Source of the DNA: a virus
IMG/VR virus record: IMGVR_UViG_3300013131_000288
Location: 1 to 21,350 of that record
Reading direction: 5' to 3' (one strand)
DNA: 21,350 nucleotides
This document shows, in pieces, positions 2,398 to 20,718 of this stretch. Position 1 is the stretch's first letter. Every line of letters begins with the position of its first letter. The notes beneath the pieces were generated by a model. That model saw only the letters and a list, made by a program, of their open reading frames with translations, was not told the origin of the DNA and ran no database searches. Position numbers and translations under genes: made by a program.

Positions 2398-2949
2398 ATG
2401 TTATTAAATGCTAGACAGAATGGTTTTATATTCAATTTTCCTAAATCTTTTATAGGTGAAAGTGTAGTTGAAAAATATGCACCTTATATAAAAAGGATGC
2501 CCATTCCTTATGATACTGTCCACCAGTTCATAAACTCTACTATACAACAAGTGAATTTTCCTACTCTGAAGGGTATAGATACTAGTGAACAAATTAGACC
2601 TGGTGGTTTTAAACAAACATACAAAAGTGCTACTACCCTACAAAACTTAATACAAAGGGACTTTACAGTAACTTTTAAATTAGGAGAGGGATTTATTAAT
2701 TATTGGGTTATTTATGAAAATATAATTAATTTCTTAGATTTTCAAAATCCGAATCAATATTTTGATGATTTTAAATTAATGCTATTAGACAATGAGGGTG
2801 TTATAATGGCAAGTGTTCTTTTGCAGCAACCTTTAGTTACTTCGATATCCGAATTACAATTAAACTATGCTTCAACAACCCCTCAATTTTCAACATTCAG
2901 TGTTGGATTTAGATGTAATTATGTGAATGTTAAACTCGAAATCGGATAA
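2398..2949 (+). CDS. Tail-tube-fold protein (gp19/gp48/gp54-like)
   Basis: At 183 residues this is about the size of the T4 tail tube protein gp19 (163 aa). The middle and C-terminal parts show the pattern I associate with the tube fold: DFTVTFKLGEGFINYW (about residues 88-103), a helix with YENIINFL, a strand pair with LMLLDNEGVIMASVLLQ, and a closing strand motif STFSVGFRCNYVNVKLE. This fold is shared by tail tube subunits and by the gp48/gp54 baseplate-tube proteins, and I cannot separate these from sequence alone. It follows the large structural gene at 61-2388 with a 9-nt gap. Its last 23 nt overlap, in another frame, the relic start of the RuvC-like gene at 2927. Fold-level assignment is moderate; the exact paralogue is open. 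Confidence 0.55.
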   Translation: MLLNARQNGFIFNFPKSFIGESVVEKYAPYIKRMPIPYDTVHQFINSTIQQVNFPTLKGIDTSEQIRPGGFKQTYKSATTLQNLIQRDFTVTFKLGEGFINYWVIYENIINFLDFQNPNQYFDDFKLMLLDNEGVIMASVLLQQPLVTSISELQLNYASTTPQFSTFSVGFRCNYVNVKLEIG

Positions 2950-3079
2950 GAAAATAATAGGTATAGATTTTTCTTTGAATTTAGGATATATAATATATGA
3001 AAAGGTATGTTACATATCTAACTGTTTATATTGGAGAGCTTTTACCCAAATACTATATTGGTTCAACTTCCGAGGATAA
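2927..3079 (+). pseudogene. Relic 5' end of the RuvC-like nuclease gene
   Basis: A 50-codon reading frame opens at ATG 2927, inside the end of the tail-tube-like gene. Residues 9-22 read KKIIGIDFSLNLGY, matching the first catalytic motif of the downstream RuvC-like protein, whose N-terminus reads TKYIGVDFSPNSPGF. After about codon 23 the frame loses resemblance, enters the endonuclease gene and stops at 3079. This is best explained as the original start of the RuvC-like gene, disconnected when the endonuclease gene at 2997 inserted with a substitute 5' end. The two copies differ at many synonymous positions, which argues against a recent tandem duplication. The similarity is short but includes the invariant Gly-x-Asp. 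Confidence 0.6.
2984..2993 (+). promoter_or_regulatory. Late-promoter-like element GGATATATAA
   Basis: The element ends 3 nt before the ATG at 2997. The 17-mer covering the element and start codon (2984-3000) recurs exactly at 16320-16336. It probably marks where the mobile endonuclease cassette begins, since the resemblance of the RuvC relic to its parent fades here. Confidence 0.5.
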
Positions 3080-3824
3080 AATAATTTCTGGTAATTATTT
3101 TGGAAGTGTAAAATCTAAAAAATGGAAATCCATATTTAGAAACGAATTAAAAAAAAATAAACATTTATTTTCTGTACAAATATTATCATATCATAATGAT
3201 AGAAAATCCGCATTAGAAGAGGAATTAAGATTACAAAAAGAAAAAGATGTTGTAAGATCAAAAGATTATATTAATGAATCATTAGCAACCCCAAATGGAT
3301 TCTTTGGAATGGATACTAAGGGAGAGAAATCTCCAACGTTTGGAAATAAAATGTCTGATGAATCTAAGAAAAAAATGTCATTAGCAAAAAAGGGGAAAAG
3401 TTATGAAGAAATATACGGAAAAGAAACTGCTAATAAATTAAAATTAAGAATGTCTGAAAGATTTTCTGGTGATAAAAATCCAATGTATGGAATATCAAGA
3501 ATCGGAACTGATGCACCTAACTATGGAAATAAAATGTCTGATGAATCTAGGAAAAAAATGTCGGATTCACAGAAAGGAAATAGAAATAGATTAGGAAAAG
3601 AATCTTCAGAAAAAACTAGAAATATATTATCAGAATTAAATAAAGGCGAAAAAAACCCAAGATATAAAGAAATTAATTTTTCATTAGTTATTGGATTTAT
3701 AAAAAAGGGAAAAACCAATAAAGAAATATGTGAATTATTTGGTATTTCTATATGTACTTTTAGAAATAGATTTAAAGAAGAAATGGGAATATCAATAAAA
3801 GAATATAGGAAAAAATATGAATAA
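2997..3824 (+). CDS. GIY-YIG homing endonuclease with NUMOD3-type repeats
   Basis: The N-terminus carries a GIY-YIG nuclease motif: TVYIG at residues 9-13 and YYIGST at 19-24, followed by basic residues and ALEEELRLQKE, whose Glu fits the metal-binding position. Residues about 108-215 hold repeated NUMOD3-like DNA-contact modules (GEKSPTFGNKMSDESKKKM, GDKNPMYG, YGNKMSDESRKKM, GEKNPRY). The last 45 residues read as a helix-turn-helix (NKEICELFGISICTFRNRF). This layout is that of free-standing phage homing endonucleases such as the T4 Seg proteins. The gene sits between the relic and the working copy of the RuvC-like gene and overlaps the latter by 8 nt. Lysine and AAA codons are more frequent than in its neighbours, consistent with a mobile origin. 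Confidence 0.9.
   Translation: MKRYVTYLTVYIGELLPKYYIGSTSEDKIISGNYFGSVKSKKWKSIFRNELKKNKHLFSVQILSYHNDRKSALEEELRLQKEKDVVRSKDYINESLATPNGFFGMDTKGEKSPTFGNKMSDESKKKMSLAKKGKSYEEIYGKETANKLKLRMSERFSGDKNPMYGISRIGTDAPNYGNKMSDESRKKMSDSQKGNRNRLGKESSEKTRNILSELNKGEKNPRYKEINFSLVIGFIKKGKTNKEICELFGISICTFRNRFKEEMGISIKEYRKKYE
3341..3378 (+). repeat. Intragenic direct repeat in the GIY-YIG gene, copy 1
   Basis: These 38 nt recur at 3524-3561 with one mismatch (AAG versus AGG). They encode the repeated G-N-K-M-S-D-E-S-[KR]-K-K-M module of the NUMOD3-like DNA-binding region. The copies are 183 nt (61 codons) apart, so the repeat keeps frame. Confidence 0.8.
3524..3561 (+). repeat. Intragenic direct repeat in the GIY-YIG gene, copy 2
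   Basis: This is the second copy of the 38-nt repeat at 3341-3378. Its segment 3537-3556 is also identical over 20 nt to 8600-8619 in the unrelated endonuclease inside the uvsW locus. Confidence 0.8.
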
Positions 3825-4503
3825 AACGAAATATATTGGAGTGGATTTTTCACCAAATAGCCCCGGTTTTTGTATATTAACAGAAGACTCGTGTAAATTA
3901 ATTAGTATTTTTAGAACAACTAATATAATTCCAAAACTTCTTAAAAAAGAAAGCTCACCATTTAAAGTATTTACGGAAAATAAATTAGTAGACATTAATA
4001 TCATCGAGAAACAAGAATTCAGTGGAGAATATCACGAAAAAGAGAGAGATAAACTTTTGAATTCGATATATTTTTCAGACTTAGTTTTACAATTATTAGA
4101 ACCATATTTAGATGAAAATACCTTAATATCTATGGAAGGGATTTCTTATGGATCTCAGGGAAATGCTCTAGTTGATATTTCAATGGTTACCGCATTAGTT
4201 AGAGCTGGTATAATCAAAAAAATAAATCCAGATAATTTTTATGTTTTTTCCCCTTCATCAGTTAAAAAATTTGCTGTTAAGGGGAATGCAAAAAAAGATG
4301 AATTATATTATGCTTTTATAGAAAAAAAGAAAAATGATATAAGATTTAAAGAATTAATAGATGTTTTTGAAACAAATAAAGATAAATGGGTAAAAGGACC
4401 AAAGAAGGTTGAAGGGCCTTGTTCGGATTTAATAGATTCAATATGGTTATCCTTATTCTTAGAGGAAAATTTGGAGAAACTTTTATCTGGTAAGAAGATA
4501 TAA
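3817..4503 (+). CDS. RuvC-like (RNase H fold) nuclease, possible Holliday junction resolvase
   Basis: The 228-residue protein has the four acidic positions of the RuvC/RNase H fold: D10 in IGVDFSP, E107 in LISMEGISYGSQGN, and D204 and D207 near the C-terminus (SDLIDSIWL). The segment VFSPSSVKKFAVKGNAKKDEL (about 143-163) resembles the substrate-contact loop of RuvC family resolvases. Such enzymes cut branched DNA. T4 uses the unrelated endonuclease VII (gp49) for this, so this protein could serve that role here, which is inference. The start overlaps the preceding endonuclease gene by 8 nt, suggesting translational coupling. A relic of an alternative 5' end lies upstream at 2927, so the present N-terminus probably came with the endonuclease insertion. 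Confidence 0.75.
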   Translation: MNKTKYIGVDFSPNSPGFCILTEDSCKLISIFRTTNIIPKLLKKESSPFKVFTENKLVDINIIEKQEFSGEYHEKERDKLLNSIYFSDLVLQLLEPYLDENTLISMEGISYGSQGNALVDISMVTALVRAGIIKKINPDNFYVFSPSSVKKFAVKGNAKKDELYYAFIEKKKNDIRFKELIDVFETNKDKWVKGPKKVEGPCSDLIDSIWLSLFLEENLEKLLSGKKI

Positions 4504-5519: not shown

Positions 5520-6596
5520 ATGGAAACAAAGGAAGTTAGTAGCCTATCGATCGATAGGGTAAAGACTATAGTCAGAAGTGCTTTAGTTAAATTCTTTGGA
5601 ACTGATAATCCAGAAAGATTAAACATTCATACAATGGGCGGCAGACTAAACTTCTGCTGCCCTTATTGTGGGGATTCTTCTGAAACAGCTAGAAAGAAAA
5701 GAGGAAATCTTTATCTTGATTCATTAACTTATAAATGCTATAATGGGGGATGTGAGGTTTTTAGAAACCTTAATACATTCGTTAGGGATTTTGATATGAA
5801 AGATTCCCTTAGTGCTGATGAGAGGAGAGAAATAAATGATCTTTCTAAATCAAGTCTTTCTAGGAAAAAAGTTAGAAATTCGATAGACTTCTTTTTTAGT
5901 AAGAATTACAAAGATATATTAATCCCTAGGGAAACACTAAAGAGTAAATTAAACCTTATTGAGGTGAAAGGAACCTTTGCAGAGAAATGGTTAAATAACA
6001 GAAATCATGGAGCTGATGAGAAATTCTTATGGGATCCTTATAGAAAGAACCTCTACCTACTAAATTTATCCGGAGATGAAACTTGTGTTATAGGATTACA
6101 AGTAAGGAATATAGTAAAAAAATCAGGTAGTAAATATTACACATACAAATTGAGCGGTATTTACGAGAAACTATTAGGAATAAAAGATCCAGAGGTTCTA
6201 AGGAAAGCTCAGGAGATTGATCCAGTTTCAACCGTATTTGGATTCAGCACAGTCGATTTAGATAATATGATAACTGTGTTTGAAGGACCAATGGATGCTT
6301 GGCTTTGTCCTAATTCTATTGCATTATGTTCAATAAACAACAAGTTCCCATTTGATGTTGAAAATAAGAGATGGCTTTTAGACAGTGATAAGACAGGAAA
6401 AAATAAATCTGCTGAATTATTAAGTCAAGGTGAGGAGATTTTTCTTTGGACCAAATTTATAAATGAAAATAATTTACCTGATAGGGATAAGTGGGATTTG
6501 AATGATGTTGTTGATTATGTGAGAGAGAAGGGAATGAAGATAAATAAACTCGATAACTATTTTTCTTCAAGTATATTAGATTTAGTTGATTTATGA
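5520..6596 (+). CDS. 61: DNA primase, T4 gp61-like
   Basis: This 358-residue protein (T4 gp61 has 342) makes RNA primers for lagging-strand synthesis together with the gp41 helicase. The N-terminal zinc-binding domain shows C46-C47-P-Y-C50-G-D-S and C73-Y-N-G-G-C78. A TOPRIM-type catalytic core follows: VFEGPMDA (E255, D259), LLDSDKTG (D288, D290) and a later acidic pair in DLNDV. The zinc motif CPYCGDS is typical of phage primases. The stop overlaps the ATG of the next small gene by 4 nt. The partner helicase gp41 is not in this window. Confidence 0.87.
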   Translation: METKEVSSLSIDRVKTIVRSALVKFFGTDNPERLNIHTMGGRLNFCCPYCGDSSETARKKRGNLYLDSLTYKCYNGGCEVFRNLNTFVRDFDMKDSLSADERREINDLSKSSLSRKKVRNSIDFFFSKNYKDILIPRETLKSKLNLIEVKGTFAEKWLNNRNHGADEKFLWDPYRKNLYLLNLSGDETCVIGLQVRNIVKKSGSKYYTYKLSGIYEKLLGIKDPEVLRKAQEIDPVSTVFGFSTVDLDNMITVFEGPMDAWLCPNSIALCSINNKFPFDVENKRWLLDSDKTGKNKSAELLSQGEEIFLWTKFINENNLPDRDKWDLNDVVDYVREKGMKINKLDNYFSSSILDLVDL

Positions 6597-6781
6597 AAAA
6601 GAACAACAATAAATATAAATCTCCTCTCAATCTAAAGGAGGAGAATAATATTTTTTCTCAAGATCTTGAATTAGGTGAAAACTTTGATGCTGGTTCGCCT
6701 AAAAGTAAAATAGATCAAGGTTTTGTTGAAGTTAAACCAGTAAAAAAAGGTAAGAAATGTCAGAGCAAAAAACTAATTTAG
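6593..6781 (+). CDS. Small hypothetical protein between primase and UvsY
   Basis: This 62-residue, charged and Asn/Lys-rich protein is not recognised. It has no membrane segment or cysteine-pair motif (one Cys) and ends in a basic stretch (KPVKKGKKCQSKK). Its start overlaps the primase stop by 4 nt and its end overlaps the UvsY start by 25 nt. The tight coupling in both directions supports it being translated. A T4 gene of matching position and sequence is not known to me. Confidence 0.6.
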   Translation: MKKNNNKYKSPLNLKEENNIFSQDLELGENFDAGSPKSKIDQGFVEVKPVKKGKKCQSKKLI

Positions 6782-7224
6782 ATTCATCTGTTAGAAAGGA
6801 TTTTGAAAGTGAGTTCATTCGTGAGAGAGCGGAATGGACTGAGAAGATAAAGGTCCTAGCAGTTAGATTAAAAAATATAAAGGAGATTGCAGATGTCCAA
6901 GTCGATTTATTTTCTTACCGACAGATCTTACTAGAATATAATGCTAGTCTTTTACAGGTTATGAGTAAACTTAATTCAAAACTTAGAAAAGATAAAAGCG
7001 AAAGACTAAAATACTATTCCGAAAATTATCAAGTTAAGTATGGTGCTAATGAAAAAACACCACTTATTGATGGAGACCTTTCAGAACTAAAGGAGAGAAT
7101 AGATATTGTAGACACACAAATAAGTTTCTTAAACGAAACTATAAAAACTGTAGATTTCATGCTTTATGGTGTGAAGGACAGAATTAGAGTACATGAATTC
7201 CTTGTGGGAAGTACTTTGAAATAA
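6757..7224 (+). CDS. uvsY: UvsY-like recombination mediator
   Basis: The protein has 155 residues (T4 UvsY has 137). UvsY helps load the UvsX recombinase on gp32-covered ssDNA. The match is by pattern: an N-terminal helical region (EFIRERAEWTEKIKVLAVRL), a basic helix followed by a Tyr-rich segment (SKLRKDKSERLKYYSENY, compare the L-D-Y-Y-S-G segment in T4 UvsY), a middle helix of alternating acidic and hydrophobic residues, and a C-terminal helix ending in IRVHEFLVG (T4: IKHIQDMRAFEAG). It lies between gp32/primase genes and UvsW, its functional partners, which strengthens the call. The ATG at 6757 follows an AAAGGTAAGAA leader. No recombinase (UvsX) gene is visible in the window. Confidence 0.72.
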   Translation: MSEQKTNLDSSVRKDFESEFIRERAEWTEKIKVLAVRLKNIKEIADVQVDLFSYRQILLEYNASLLQVMSKLNSKLRKDKSERLKYYSENYQVKYGANEKTPLIDGDLSELKERIDIVDTQISFLNETIKTVDFMLYGVKDRIRVHEFLVGSTLK

Positions 7225-7233
7225 AGATTAATA

Positions 7234-8247
7234 ATGTTAAAGTTTTCAGTGACAGATGATAATAATTGGTTGAGTTTATTTCACTATGATGAGGAGTTCG
7301 AGAGAAAACAAATGGAAATTTCTTTAACTAGAAAAATACACAATCACTTTTTCCACCCTTTGGTTAAGAAAAAACATTGGGATGGATCAATATGTTTTAT
7401 TGATAAAAAACCCACATTCTGGAGAATCCCTGTTGGACTATGGGGAGAAGTATATGAGATTTGTGAAAAATATAAAATACCTGTTGAGATCAATGGTCTC
7501 GAAAGGGTAATAGATAATAAATTAACTTTGGAAGATTTTACTGAATGGTGTAATGAATTTTTCAAAGATGGTATAGGAGGAGATCCTAATAAAAAACCTA
7601 GAGACTATCAAATAGAAGCAGCTTGGAGAATAGTTAAGTTTAAACTTTCAGTTTCTGAAATTGCTACTAGTTCGGGTAAAACTTTTATTGCTTTTATAGT
7701 TTTAGCCTATTTAAAAAGTGTGCATAAAGTACAAAAGTTTCTAATGGTTGTTCCTAACACAAATTTAGTGTTACAAGGATCGGAAGATTTTGAAGAATAT
7801 GGACTCGAGAATCTTGATAACTGTGAGCTTCAACAAATACACGGATCTAATAAAAAGAAAATATCAAGTGGCCTAATGATAGGAACCTATCAATCGCTTG
7901 TGAAATTAGGACCTGAGTTTTTTGATGGAGTTGAAGCTGTGTTTGTGGATGAGTGTTTACACCCAGATTCTTTAGTAACTATGGCTGATAATTCATTAAA
8001 AAGAATCTGTGATATTGTTGTAGGGGAGGAAGTATTAACTGTAAATGATAAATCAGGAAAGGTCGAATCTAAAATTGTAGATTTTGTTTATCATAATATG
8101 TCAAAAGGTAATCAGATGTATGAAATAGAAACTGATTGCGGTAAGATATTAAAAGTTACAGGTAATCATAAGTTAAGACTTTCTACTGGAGAATGGAAAA
8201 AGGTTGAAGATCTGACAGAGTCTGATGAGTTATGGGATTTATATTAA
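7234..8247 (+). CDS. uvsW: UvsW-like helicase, N-terminal half fused to intein N-half (IntN)
   Basis: Residues 1-240 are the N-terminal half of a UvsW-type superfamily 2 helicase. They comprise the small N-terminal domain (FERKQMEISLTRKIHNHFFHPLVKK, WDGSICFIDKKP), then RDYQIEAAW (Q-motif region), Walker A TSSGKT (G148-K149-T150), the VVPNTNLVLQ motif, GTYQSLVK, and the start of Walker B, VFVDE. UvsW unwinds branched DNA and R-loops. At C241 (base 7954) the protein turns into a 97-residue intein N-terminal splicing domain that stops at 8247. The remaining helicase motifs are encoded only at 9201-10025 in another frame. The product cannot be an active helicase alone. The last 23 nt overlap the endonuclease gene, suggesting coupled translation. 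Confidence 0.9.
   Translation: MLKFSVTDDNNWLSLFHYDEEFERKQMEISLTRKIHNHFFHPLVKKKHWDGSICFIDKKPTFWRIPVGLWGEVYEICEKYKIPVEINGLERVIDNKLTLEDFTEWCNEFFKDGIGGDPNKKPRDYQIEAAWRIVKFKLSVSEIATSSGKTFIAFIVLAYLKSVHKVQKFLMVVPNTNLVLQGSEDFEEYGLENLDNCELQQIHGSNKKKISSGLMIGTYQSLVKLGPEFFDGVEAVFVDECLHPDSLVTMADNSLKRICDIVVGEEVLTVNDKSGKVESKIVDFVYHNMSKGNQMYEIETDCGKILKVTGNHKLRLSTGEWKKVEDLTESDELWDLY
7954..8244 (+). other. Split intein N-terminal fragment (IntN)
   Basis: The 97-residue Hint N-domain starts with nucleophile Cys1 (CLHPDSLVTMADNSLKRI, block A), has the strand VGEEVLTV, and carries block B with the TxxH motif (V-T69-G-N-H72-KL), followed by STGEWKKVEDL. In inteins Cys1 performs the first N-to-S shift and the TxxH His activates it. 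Length and ending resemble known split-intein N-halves. It ends at a stop codon rather than running into the endonuclease. Confidence 0.9.
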
Positions 8248-9094
8248 TAAAAGACCCATGTGTAACAATCAAGATAAACAAAAAATTAAAGAATATATTA
8301 TTAAGAATAAAAAATTTATAACTCAGTACCGGATGAAAGAGATATTAGATAAGGAAAAAAGAGCATTATCTAATATTAGGCTTTTTTCTGGAATAAACAT
8401 TCCTGATGAAATAGATGATGTTAAATCATTATTGTGTTTAATTGATGTTAATAACGGAGTATGTGAGAGGGATGGTTGTATAAACGAAAAATCAAGGGAT
8501 CCAGGTAGATGGGAACTAAGAAAATTCTGTAGTAGATCGTGTGCAGATAAGGATTTTGGATCTAAGCAAATTGGATGTAAAAATTCTTTCCATAACATAT
8601 CTGATGAATCTAGGAAAAATATGGGATCTAAGATATCTAAAAAAATTAGAAAAAGGATACTAGATGGTGAATTTACTCCTAATATAACTAATTCTTGGTC
8701 AAATAGTAAGATCTCTGTTAATATTAATGGCGAATTAAAATTTGTAAGATCCTCCTGGGAAGCATATTTTTATATTTTAAATAAGGATCTTAGTTATGAA
8801 TTAATAAGAATTCCCTATTTAGACGAAAAGACAAACAAAGTTAGAAGTTATATAACTGACTTTTGTGATTTTAATAATAAGATAATATATGAAATAAAAC
8901 CAAAAACGAGAGTAAAAGATAATTTTTTAAAAATAAAAGAGGCTAAGAAGTGGTGCGAAATAAATTCTTATTCCTATGTAATAATAACACAGGAATGGAT
9001 AATAGAGAGATATGATCGAAAAAAATTAGTGGATCAACCTGAAGGAGAAAGAATAGCAAGACTTATTGAAAAAATGATAAAATATGAAAATTAG
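8225..9094 (+). CDS. PD-(D/E)XK-like homing endonuclease within the split-intein locus
   Basis: The ORF has 289 residues. C80, C85, C102 and C106 (CERDGC ... FCSRSC) look like a zinc finger. Residues 126-145 (SDESRKNMGSKISKKIRKRI) are NUMOD3-like. The C-terminal third has a nuclease core: VRSSWEAYF (E179), SYITDF (D212) and IIYEIKP (E223, K225), then a Lys-rich helix and SYVIIT, fitting the E...D...ExK order of PD-(D/E)XK or VSR-like homing nucleases. It would cut intein-free uvsW alleles to spread the element. The start is uncertain: ATG 8225 overlaps the IntN ORF, while ATG 8258 (residue 12) lies just after the upstream stop behind an AATAAAAG leader and may be the true start. The end overlaps the C-half gene by 11 nt. 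The exact nuclease subfamily is inference. Confidence 0.82.
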   Translation: MSYGIYINKRPMCNNQDKQKIKEYIIKNKKFITQYRMKEILDKEKRALSNIRLFSGINIPDEIDDVKSLLCLIDVNNGVCERDGCINEKSRDPGRWELRKFCSRSCADKDFGSKQIGCKNSFHNISDESRKNMGSKISKKIRKRILDGEFTPNITNSWSNSKISVNINGELKFVRSSWEAYFYILNKDLSYELIRIPYLDEKTNKVRSYITDFCDFNNKIIYEIKPKTRVKDNFLKIKEAKKWCEINSYSYVIITQEWIIERYDRKKLVDQPEGERIARLIEKMIKYEN

Positions 9095-16319: not shown

Positions 16320-16329
16320 GGATATATAA
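16320..16329 (+). promoter_or_regulatory. Late-promoter-like element GGATATATAA
   Basis: It begins 2 nt after the terminator T-run and ends 3 nt before the ATG at 16333. Because transcription from upstream should stop just before it, this is the best evidence that the element is a promoter. Confidence 0.6.
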
Positions 16330-16332
16330 TAT

Positions 16333-16914
16333 ATGAATCATTTATTTAGCTATCAGGAATATTTAATAGAAGGGTCAATACTTGTTACATCAAACTGGGC
16401 CATTGTTTATAACGAGAAAGAACTTTACAAGAAACCCGGAAACGGTGCATTTATTTTTAATAGTATGGGTAAGTTCTACATCTATTATATGTTTCCTGAT
16501 TCTAAGAAAGAATGTTTCCTTGGTTTTTACGAGTCTAAGGATAAGTCTAGAGACAAAAAAAGTCTTTGTTATATAAAGGTTAAGGAGAACAAAAAAGAAA
16601 TCAGCTACGAGTCTTTTATTAATGTTGATAAACAAGAACTTGTGGATATACTAATTCATTTCTTTGATTCATGTGACGTTGAAGACCTTCAAAAATCAGA
16701 GAGAGGAAAATTCTTAATGGGATTATGTAAATCGTTAAAAGGTGTTGTGAAAAGTGAATATGCGGAAAAACTTCCTGCAGCATATACTCTTTTTAATAAA
16801 ACTATAGACGATTATACCAAAATAGCAAAAACTCCTGAATTGGATAAGAGTGATAAGAATTATAAATTTCTAGATGTCTTCAAACAATTTGTAGAATTTT
16901 ATAAGTCTTGTTAG
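16333..16914 (+). CDS. Hypothetical protein with capsid-targeting-like N-terminus
   Basis: The protein has 193 residues. MNHLFSYQEYLIE followed by G is the closest match in the window to the T4 signal: Y-Q-E-Y-L-I-E against Y-Q-E-F-I-A-E, with Gly, a favoured residue, after the cut. The body has beta-like strands (GAFIFNSMGKFYIYYMF, CFLGFYES, SLCYIKVKE) followed by helices and is not recognised. It is a single-gene unit with its own promoter-like element. Its stop directly abuts the stop of the minus-strand HNH gene with no gap. Confidence 0.6.
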   Translation: MNHLFSYQEYLIEGSILVTSNWAIVYNEKELYKKPGNGAFIFNSMGKFYIYYMFPDSKKECFLGFYESKDKSRDKKSLCYIKVKENKKEISYESFINVDKQELVDILIHFFDSCDVEDLQKSERGKFLMGLCKSLKGVVKSEYAEKLPAAYTLFNKTIDDYTKIAKTPELDKSDKNYKFLDVFKQFVEFYKSC

Positions 16915-17299: not shown

Positions 17300-17608
17300 T
17301 TAGTTACCTTCCTTCCTTTTTAAATTTTCTAAGAATGCACCCCATACTGCTCCCCCGTCTTTTATACCAGGTTTAGGAAATTTGTGATTCTTTGCTCTTT
17401 CTGACATTATGTAAGCTGCTATGATAGCATCTTTTAATTCGAGTTCTTTTTTGTCTAGCATTTCTTGTATTCTCCTAACTGATCTTAATGCTTCATCTCT
17501 ATTAACAAATCTTAATCCACCAGGATATTTCTTGTCTGTTCTGTCAAAAGGATTTATGTCACTAAGATATACAGCCTCGTATAATTTGAAAGTTAGGATA
17601 TTTTTCAT
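17300..17608 (-). CDS. Hypothetical protein, possible capsid-targeting N-terminus
   Basis: The protein has 102 residues, read from ATG 17608. MKNILTFKLYE followed by A weakly fits the targeting and cleavage pattern (F-K-L-Y-E-A). The body has a helix pair (RDEALRSVRRIQEMLDKKELELKDAIIAAYIMSERAKNH) and a Gly-rich end with VWGAFLENLKRK. It is not recognised. It is transcribed opposite to most of the window with its own promoter-like element, and the HNH gene is directly downstream. Confidence 0.6.
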   Translation of the reverse strand: MKNILTFKLYEAVYLSDINPFDRTDKKYPGGLRFVNRDEALRSVRRIQEMLDKKELELKDAIIAAYIMSERAKNHKFPKPGIKDGGAVWGAFLENLKRKEGN

Positions 17609-17660: not shown

Positions 17661-19079
17661 ATGATAATAGATATTGAAAACATAGGAGGAGGTACTTTAA
17701 AGGTATCTCATTACACTGAGGAGGGGGAAGTAAATCTTTTAAAGATAAACGTACCCAAGTCTCAGCATTTTGTTTGGAAAAGGACACATGATAGGGATAA
17801 GGAAAAAGACAATGAATGGACATCTTGGGATAAATCACCGATTAAGAAACATCCAACTACTAGATTTGATAAGTATAGAACAACAGAAATTCTAGAATGT
17901 ATAGATCCAAATATAACTAAGCCTCTTTGGGATTATCAAACGCCAAAAAAATACTTTGTCGATATAGAGGTAGAGATTACAGACAATAGAGCGGATTCAT
18001 TAGACACCTTGAATTCTCCGAATAAGGTTGTTTCTATCGGTATGGCATCAAGCCACGGTAAGGTTCTAGTTATGGGATTGGATGACATGCCACCAGAGAA
18101 AATATTAAGAATTAACAAAAGACTGGCAGAGTATTTCAAGGGAAGACCAGGGGAATGGAGTTTTAATTATAGAAAGTTTGAAAGTGAATTTGATATGCTC
18201 TACACATTCTTTTCTGCTCTACTTCCTAAAATGCCTCTAGTTACTGGATGGAACTGGTTTGGATATGACTGGCCTTATTTGTTAAATAGAGCGAGAAGAC
18301 TTGGAATAGATCCTAAGATTGGATCTCCTTCAGGAGTTCTTCTAGGTAACAATCAAATACCTATGCACGTACTAATGGTCGATTACCTAGAGATCTATAA
18401 AAAATGGGACAGGGTTATTAAAATACGTGAATCCAACTCTTTAGATTATGTTGCAGAGCAGGCACTCGGTATTAAGAAAGTTAAGTATGATGGAACATTA
18501 AGGGATTTATACGAATCAGATTTTGAGACTTTTATATTCTATAACGCAGTCGATTGTGTGCTACTTCATTATATAGACAAAAGACTTGATACACTTTCAA
18601 CATTCTTTAAAATTGCACAAGTAAGTAGGGTTGAAATAAACCGTGCGCTTTCACCGGTTTGGACAACAGAAGTACTGATGCTTAGAAAGTTCATGGAACG
18701 GAAACAAGTTATCCTTGATGAAAGGAAGGAGGTACCAGATGTTAAATTCGAAGGGGCATTCGTTAAGAAACCAAAACCTGGTATGTATTCTTGGATTGCT
18801 TGTTTTGACTTTGCTTCTCTTTATCCTAATACGATGATGCAATGGGGTATATCACCTGAAATATTTATTGGTAAGAATATAGAAGATCTCCCGGAGGGAG
18901 CTATAAAAACATCTTCAGGAGCTTGCTTCTATAGTCCTGAAGGAAGACCCCCAGTTTTAAGGGAGATACTAGAATGGCTTTATTCACAAAGAAAAGCAAC
19001 TAAGAAAAAGTACTTTGAGTGTGAGAAAGAAATAGAGAAAATAAAAAAAGCGATAAAAGAGAAACAAAAATCAATATAA
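17661..19079 (+). CDS. 43: Family B DNA polymerase, N-terminal half only (gp43A-like)
   Basis: The 472 residues cover the N-terminal and 3'-5' exonuclease domains and the start of the palm: Exo I VDIEVEI (D101, E103), Exo II GWNWFGYDWPYL (N198, D203), Exo III YNAVDCV (Y294, D298), and polymerase motif A CFDFASLYPN (D383, S386, Y388). The protein ends after WLYSQRKATKKKYFE and a Lys/Glu-rich helix, at the fingers, so motif B (KxxxNSxYG), motif C (DTD) and the thumb are missing. T4 gp43 has 898 residues. No continuation is present in any frame downstream to 21350. Some Aeromonas T4-like phages have gene 43 split into 43A and 43B, so a separate C-terminal gene outside the window is likely. The 3'-5' exonuclease residues are intact. 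Confidence 0.88.
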   Translation: MIIDIENIGGGTLKVSHYTEEGEVNLLKINVPKSQHFVWKRTHDRDKEKDNEWTSWDKSPIKKHPTTRFDKYRTTEILECIDPNITKPLWDYQTPKKYFVDIEVEITDNRADSLDTLNSPNKVVSIGMASSHGKVLVMGLDDMPPEKILRINKRLAEYFKGRPGEWSFNYRKFESEFDMLYTFFSALLPKMPLVTGWNWFGYDWPYLLNRARRLGIDPKIGSPSGVLLGNNQIPMHVLMVDYLEIYKKWDRVIKIRESNSLDYVAEQALGIKKVKYDGTLRDLYESDFETFIFYNAVDCVLLHYIDKRLDTLSTFFKIAQVSRVEINRALSPVWTTEVLMLRKFMERKQVILDERKEVPDVKFEGAFVKKPKPGMYSWIACFDFASLYPNTMMQWGISPEIFIGKNIEDLPEGAIKTSSGACFYSPEGRPPVLREILEWLYSQRKATKKKYFECEKEIEKIKKAIKEKQKSI

Positions 19080-19835: not shown

Positions 19836-19845
19836 GGATATATAA
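19836..19845 (+). promoter_or_regulatory. Late-promoter-like element GGATATATAA
   Basis: The element ends 3 nt before the ATG at 19849, with the same spacing as at 61, 2997, 16333 and 17608. It serves the second GIY-YIG endonuclease gene. Confidence 0.5.
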
Positions 19846-19848
19846 AAG

Positions 19849-20718
19849 ATGAAAGCTTTTGTATATCGTTGGACCAATCATAAGAATCTTATGCAATATA
19901 TTGGATCTCATATAGGGGATATTGATGATGGATATGTAGGATCCGGAAAATATTTTATTAATGCCTATAACAAAAATCCCGAATTTTTTTCACGTGAGAT
20001 ATTGGAATTTATAGAGGGAGATGACGTAAAGAGTATAATAAAGGAGAGAGAAGAGTATTACCTAAATATTTATGAAGTTTCAAAAAATCCTCTATATTAT
20101 AACATAACTGAAAGATATTTCGGTGGAGATGTTTATTCAGGATTAAACGAGGAGGATAAAAAGATTATGATGGATAAAACGGTAAAAAAAACTAAGGAGG
20201 ATAGGGCCAATAATCCAGAAAAATGGAGATTAATATATGATAAGATGTCTAAAACTAAGAGAGATAAATCTTCTTATATTAACCAATTTGATATTAATGG
20301 AATATTGATAAGTACTTATTCTTGTATAGAGGAAGCACACGAAATGACTGGAATATCTAAAGGAAATATACATTCGGTTCTAATAGGTAAAAGAAATAAT
20401 GCTGGTGGATTTAGGTGGTCCTATACAGATGTACCTAATCTGCTTATTAATAAAAAACGCGGAAGACCTAATGGGGTAAGGAACAAGAATAAAATGGAAA
20501 GATCACATACCAATGTAAGAAAACTGGAAGTGATTCAGTATGATCTAGAGGGGGATTTAATTAGAATTTGGGAATCTTCTTTAGAAGCATCTAGGGAGTT
20601 GGGATTAAGCTCAGGATCAATAAACCATTTTATTAACGGAAGAAAACCAAAGTCAGGAAACTACGGAGGATTTATATGGGAAAAAGGAAATAATATCACT
20701 TACACCATATACAAATAA
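19849..20718 (+). CDS. GIY-YIG homing endonuclease with two NUMOD1-type domains
   Basis: This 289-residue protein has a GIY-YIG-type N-terminus (AFVYRWTN at 3-10, QYIGSHIG at 16-23, then GYVGSGKYF and EREEYYLN with a candidate catalytic Glu). Two NUMOD1-like repeats follow: INQFDINGILISTYSCIEEA ... GGFRW (about 134-186) and VIQYDLEGDLIRIWESSLEA ... GGFIW (about 228-280), each a beta-hairpin plus helix-turn-helix used to bind DNA. An RGRPNG AT-hook-like stretch lies between them. The domain layout differs from the first GIY-YIG gene, so the two are separate arrivals. It lies between gene 56 and nrdB; nrdB is a known target region for such enzymes in T4-like phages. Confidence 0.88.
   Translation: MKAFVYRWTNHKNLMQYIGSHIGDIDDGYVGSGKYFINAYNKNPEFFSREILEFIEGDDVKSIIKEREEYYLNIYEVSKNPLYYNITERYFGGDVYSGLNEEDKKIMMDKTVKKTKEDRANNPEKWRLIYDKMSKTKRDKSSYINQFDINGILISTYSCIEEAHEMTGISKGNIHSVLIGKRNNAGGFRWSYTDVPNLLINKKRGRPNGVRNKNKMERSHTNVRKLEVIQYDLEGDLIRIWESSLEASRELGLSSGSINHFINGRKPKSGNYGGFIWEKGNNITYTIYK

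Follow-up and report, generated by a model that had tools for sequence, protein, structure and literature searches.

A GIY-YIG homing endonuclease inserted in a phage RuvC-like resolvase gene, with a relic of the old gene start and a probable replacement 5' end

RESULTS

A homing endonuclease gene lies between a relic and a complete copy of a resolvase gene

The window (the whole stretch of DNA analysed) is a 21,350-nucleotide (nt) record of an uncultured virus and represents a fragment of a T4-like phage. It carries genes for the tail tube, a homing endonuclease with GIY-YIG, NUMOD3, and helix-turn-helix (HTH) parts, a RuvC-like resolvase, a gp32-type single-strand binding protein (ssb), and a primase; the named distant relatives of the tube protein come from Bacteroidota phages (Prevotella Lak, Tenacibaculum), alongside uncultured huge phages. 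The features of the locus are as follows.

2398..2949, + strand: tail tube gene (phrog_45, E = 7e-8; 33 relatives at 68-83% amino acid identity)
2927..2980, + strand: relic, read as codons 1-18 of the pre-insertion RuvC-like gene (MLNSKSDKKIIGIDFSLN) and cut after motif I; matches intact relatives
2981..2996, + strand: left end of the cassette, the endonuclease leader TTA-GGATATATAATAT with a TATATAA-N3-ATG start signal
2997..3824, + strand: GIY-YIG-type homing endonuclease gene with NUMOD3 motifs and a C-terminal HTH (NUMOD3, E = 1.5e-14; homing endonucleases phrog_10820 and phrog_314)
3817..4503, + strand: live RuvC-like Holliday junction resolvase gene (phrog_159, E = 3e-12; AlphaFold pLDDT 91.9; best PDB matches RuvC)
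3829..3858, + strand: replacement motif I copy (KYIGVDFSPN), duplicating relic positions 2951-2980 (63% nt identity; Asp10 codon at 3844-3846)

The initial annotation of this DNA had described two copies of RuvC motif I, one in a relic frame at 2927 and one in a live gene at 3817, on either side of a GIY-YIG gene; this arrangement was confirmed, with the endonuclease at 2997-3824. The frame that opens at 2927 encodes MLNSKSDKKIIGIDFSLN-LGYIIYEKV, and its motif I and 18 family codons stand, but the frame past 2980 is endonuclease leader. The true end of the relic is therefore 2980 (...DFSLN, codon N18), and a reading of "LGY" as RuvC residues was rejected, since these letters belong to the leader (TTAGGATATATAATATATG). 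The start of the relic overlaps the last 23 nt of the tube gene, just as the intact RuvC-like gene does in relatives, and positions 2951-2980 share 93% nt identity over 30 nt with the best relative, L052. Because the relic spells out 18 family residues without a gap, overlaps the tube gene in the correct way, and reaches this level of identity, the resemblance is not a matter of chance, and the 18-codon stretch is, judged by its sequence, the pre-insertion start of the RuvC-like gene.

The live gene begins MNKTKYIGVDFSPNSPGFCIL and carries the second copy of motif I. Its ATG falls within the final codons of the endonuclease gene, an 8-nt overlap that suggests translational coupling of the two. 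Asp10, Glu107, Asp204, and Asp207 are all kept and are invariant across 13 homologues, and the top PDB matches of the predicted structure are RuvC (TM up to 0.70 by target length), so that the live gene has both the fold and the four acidic catalytic residues by which RuvC-like resolvases (phrog_159) are recognized. A gene without the second motif I would lack Asp10; from RuvC chemistry, it is thus the replacement start that would keep the live gene functional. The annotation's claim that the target gene stays functional agrees with the retained residues and fold, as predicted from sequence and model, and the resolvase gene apparently remains working thanks to its substitute start.

In the endonuclease, NUMOD3 was detected in four stretches, along with the HTH and the matches to homing endonuclease PHROGs; the Pfam match to GIY-YIG is weak (SegE_GIY-YIG, 0.029), and the core (YLTVYIG...YYIGST) was recognized by eye. 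The features of the class, a GIY-YIG core with NUMOD3 and HTH DNA-binding parts, are present. The relic/endonuclease junction reads TTRGGATATATAATAT. TATATAA, placed 3 nt before an ATG, precedes five open reading frames (ORFs) of the window, those at 61, 2997, 16333, and 19849 (spans 48-61, 2984-2997, 16320-16333, and 19836-19849) and that at 17608 on the minus strand, and the same arrangement precedes the homologue of the first window gene in relatives. The window has 11 occurrences of TATATAAWA, versus 3.4 expected. This distribution suggests a phage-specific start signal, perhaps a late one, and TTA-GGATATATAATAT-ATG is, by its motif content, the endonuclease's own start region. Another homing endonuclease gene of GIY-YIG type (phrog_314) occupies 19849-20718, flanked by a dUTPase-like gene and the gene for the small subunit of ribonucleotide reductase. 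The leader of this second endonuclease has GGATATATAA in common with that of the first endonuclease, and no relic of either neighbouring gene was seen beside it.

The resolvase gene is uninterrupted in relatives without the endonuclease

Relatives were collected through the tube and RuvC proteins, which yielded 31 distinct tube-end sequences. In 26 of these 31 junctions, all endonuclease-free, the RuvC-like gene is uninterrupted, overlaps the end of the tube gene, and has a single motif I, as the annotation had predicted for relatives lacking the endonuclease. An ATG stands at the exact equivalent of 2927 in 12 of the 26 empty junctions; in the others, the start appears to be TTG or some other codon close by. 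No endonuclease-free relative carries two copies of motif I; this, and the absence of any start equivalent to 2927, had been named as observations that would speak against the insertion, and neither held. In L043 and L116, ruvC begins just past the tube stop.

Other arrangements were seen near this junction. In L192, tube and ruvC are separated by a short ORF (MANKKEYMKEYYARVKD..., 2186-2405), a remnant that may be what is left of a different type of endonuclease after decay. L062 is rearranged at 5553-7064, where the tube gene is followed by an inverted block with divergent RuvC-like and glycosyltransferase-like (HPAT) genes on the opposite strand. On the other side of ruvC, between it and ssb, L036 (6213-6911) and L057 (6227-6937) carry a T5orf172-type endonuclease gene. 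L036 is 99% identical on both sides to the endonuclease-free L034, with the 3' end of ruvC and the 5' end of ssb replaced, and this comparison suggests that the endonuclease gene was inserted by clean and recent homing. No relic from the T5orf172 endonuclease was found at the ruvC 3' end; L036 loses only the last codons.

Origin of the live 5' end in the window

Between relic and live copy, 11 of 30 nt differ. The best relative of the live copy is L043, at 77% (74-77% over motif I), so the relic is closer to relatives than the replacing end is (93% versus 77%). The similarity to L043 is a short match in the top 0.04-0.08% of scanned windows, where other segments score as high. L043 also has AATATGAATAA and M-N..TKY-GVDFS in common with the live start of the window, a resemblance which may come from both genes starting outside the tube overlap. 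If half of the 11 differences were the relic's own, about 5 relic changes would be expected, and the probability that a neutrally evolving relic still encoded the exact family consensus protein after 5 changes is about 0.001; the relic is therefore young, and the divergence of the live copy came from elsewhere.

The window forms a lone long branch in the g775, tube, ssb, primase, and ruvC trees, and its live 5' end shows no clear foreign affinity, so that L043 as the donor lineage is only hinted at. The insertion, the relic, and the replacement 5' end are well supported; import from a related phage, as the annotation had proposed, is likely. Import of the whole ruvC gene was rejected, as the same lone long branch recurs in all five trees with no switch of sister. 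A local hot patch at motif I, as compared between close endonuclease-free pairs, is not exceptional. Co-conversion of the left flank by an L057-like donor was also considered and rejected: identity to L057 over tube codons ~120-183 is 84%, but this is only a top-0.4% window. The base composition of the live 5' end is indistinguishable. A search of viral contigs by junction patterns gave no donor phage with an intact cassette, the sole further carrier being L047, and the same search of genome contigs and named phages gave no carriers. The related endonucleases EnA02, KMB20, and RHph_I46 appear to carry no target ends, as by annotation they occupy plain intergenic spots.

A second carrier with a decayed endonuclease

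L047 (IMGVR_UViG_3300016472_000356) has the same relic/endonuclease junction as the window (TTTAAATTTGTGATATATAATAT) and a near-identical cassette leader (TTGTGATATATAATAT). Nearly all of its endonuclease gene has been lost by internal deletion, with ~115 nt left, and the RuvC gene has been re-started; the remaining C-terminal HTH matches that of the window at 15 of 30 residues (50%; E = 1e-5). The phages that group with L047 in its clade lack the endonuclease, and the cassette would thus have been acquired independently in this lineage or have moved into it; alternatively, there was a single ancestral gain followed by many losses.

The relic of L047 (GACTTCTCTTTAAAT) is identical to L048, and its live copy (GATTTTTCGTTGAACTCTCCTGG) is identical to L034 and L049. 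The two spell the same five residues with all five codons different, all synonymously; such complete recoding was also seen in 9 of 153 haplotype pairs. Of the ~1,700 stretches of 66 nt scanned across five genes, those at the live 5' end show the most anomalous closeness to L034 over L047's own clade. The patch of anomalous similarity covers codons ~7-27 and stops at codon ~28, with an abrupt rise there in similarity to L066/L049, to 92-94%. L034 was first picked out after looking at the L047 data; when all relatives were scanned without such a choice, the patch came within the top ~0.1%, and other segments also score high. On these haplotype matches, the case for a foreign origin of the live 5' end of L047 is strong rather than final. 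The annotation's expectation that the present N-terminus would cluster with another lineage is thus borne out in L047 (relic with L048, live copy with L034/L049), while for the window the similarity to L043 over motif I gives a hint only.

DISCUSSION

A probable mechanism and its rivals

We consider it probable, from these sequence comparisons, that a cassette with a free-standing GIY-YIG homing endonuclease entered the RuvC-like resolvase gene of a phage behind codon 18 and brought a replacement 5' end with it. The parts of the cassette would be the endonuclease with its start signal and, overlapping the 3' end of the endonuclease gene, a diverged version of the target 5' end. The endonuclease would cut empty alleles in or near the motif I codons. 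Up to the break, the tube/ruvC start of the recipient itself would serve as the left homology arm and become the relic, and the donor's ruvC would serve as the right arm, such that endonuclease and replacement start enter the recipient together and the resolvase is kept working. Insertion would split the original site, and the replacement start, spelling nearly the same protein in different codons, would offer protection; the cassette allele should then escape cutting, through TCA-CCA for TCT-TTG in the window and through all five codons in L047.

The same layout could have arisen at an ordinary recombination junction, with an endonuclease that first sat harmlessly between the tube gene and a non-overlapping ruvC and arrived by crossover, the relic being accidental and the new start simply the donor's own rather than a selected rescue part. 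The layout of L043 and L116, the residues that L043 shares with the live start, and the small ORF remnant of L192 at the same place, as expected of a repeated insertion spot, are all consistent with this account, but the same relic/leader junction in two separate lineages points to a unit moving as such, and both live copies restore motif I; we therefore regard it as unlikely. Still less probable is in-place duplication, in which ~30 nt of target sequence would have been doubled on insertion and then diverged by drift, with no import. The duplicated stretch is indeed only ~30 nt, and no clear donor stands out for the live copy of the window, yet the window relic still spells the family consensus despite the 11 differences, and the two L047 copies exactly match different existing haplotypes of endonuclease-free relatives, which argues that duplication and drift are not the explanation.

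An endonuclease between two gene pieces is also the classical picture of a group I intron, or of a split gene whose true first exon is the relic, joined by splicing, bypassing, or protein assembly. A ribozyme core flanking the ORF is absent, there being no Rfam match and no room for one (16 nt before the endonuclease ORF and the 8-nt overlap after it), and the live gene already has a complete N-terminus with motif I, so we give this reading almost no weight. That the locus is a metagenome assembly chimera might be suspected of a 21-kb record of an uncultured virus but is scarcely credible, given an independent contig (L047) with the same junction and a decayed endonuclease. Returning to cassette insertion with a replacement 5' end, the broader proposal that phages carry natural home-and-rescue elements, in which an endonuclease cuts a core gene and brings a divergent, cleavage-proof start so that gene invasion is tolerated, seems to us evenly balanced.

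Relation to known mobile endonucleases

Phage homing endonucleases are thought to occupy introns, inteins, or intergenic sites, or to leave their target gene split. Among those inside genes are mobE in nrdA of Aeh1, mobA in the topoisomerase of T4, and seg43 in phage 25 (PMC2988022). The window endonuclease resembles these in being free-standing, within a core phage gene, and missing from relatives, but their targets stay split and the two proteins reassemble (PMC2988022), whereas the window has a single complete gene, its start replaced, beside a dead relic. Free-standing endonucleases also occupy gene junctions, such as Seg/Mob of T4 and those of ICP1-like phages (PMC10448857). Like the window endonuclease, they are intercistronic, beside core replication and tail genes, and show flanking exchange, but they insert between genes with the neighbour's coding start undamaged (PMC10448857); in the window, that start is damaged.

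The closest likeness drawn by the annotation was to a mobile ORF of Allomyces mitochondria. Mobile endonuclease ORFs with gene-end duplications are known from fungal mitochondria, in atp6 of Allomyces macrogynus and in atp6, atp9, cox2, and nad3 of Glomus sp.; there, the native-end relic matches close relatives at 91-98% and the inserted end at 64-81%, the differences are mostly synonymous, and hybrid transcripts have been shown (PMC3630166). The phage case, known from sequence, shares with these an endonuclease within a protein gene, a probably foreign replacement for the broken end and a relic left behind, mostly synonymous differences, a target gene uninterrupted in relatives (the 26 distinct empty junctions), and a relic nearer to relatives than the replacing end, with the L047 haplotypes in agreement. 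The likeness to the Allomyces atp6 ORF holds for endonuclease, relic, and replacement end and fails for the end replaced: the mitochondrial ORFs replace the 3' end (C-terminus), but the window replaces the 5' end, in a lytic-type phage. Because of this difference, we would describe the window element as working like the Allomyces/Glomus end-replacing ORFs, not as a member of that type. There is also a likeness to home-and-rescue gene drives, in which an important gene is cut and a restoring unit inserted; those drives are engineered, in flies (PMC7968924), whereas the window element is natural and would draw its recoding from a divergent homologue.

In the open-access literature, no earlier report was found of a phage endonuclease carrying a replacement 5' end. 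Such an element would add a further survival route within a coding gene, in which the endonuclease supplies a replacement for the end it damages, and would be the mirror image (5' versus 3') of fungal mitochondrial end replacement. It would also illustrate how endonucleases can exchange catalytic segments of core genes among phages, and empty allele, relic, and replacement together offer a simple, testable design for natural recoded-rescue homing.

Other observations

At 3049-4951 in L010, an RNA-ligase-like gene is apparently interrupted by a homing endonuclease gene on the opposite strand, with a second endonuclease gene directly after; the gene is uninterrupted in L013. Elsewhere in the window, a gene for a TnsA-like endonuclease-domain protein (8225-9094) is flanked by two helicase genes, and a family B DNA polymerase gene at 17661-19079 encodes only 472 amino acids, with a stop early in the polymerase domain; as in other T4-like phages, the polymerase is probably split.
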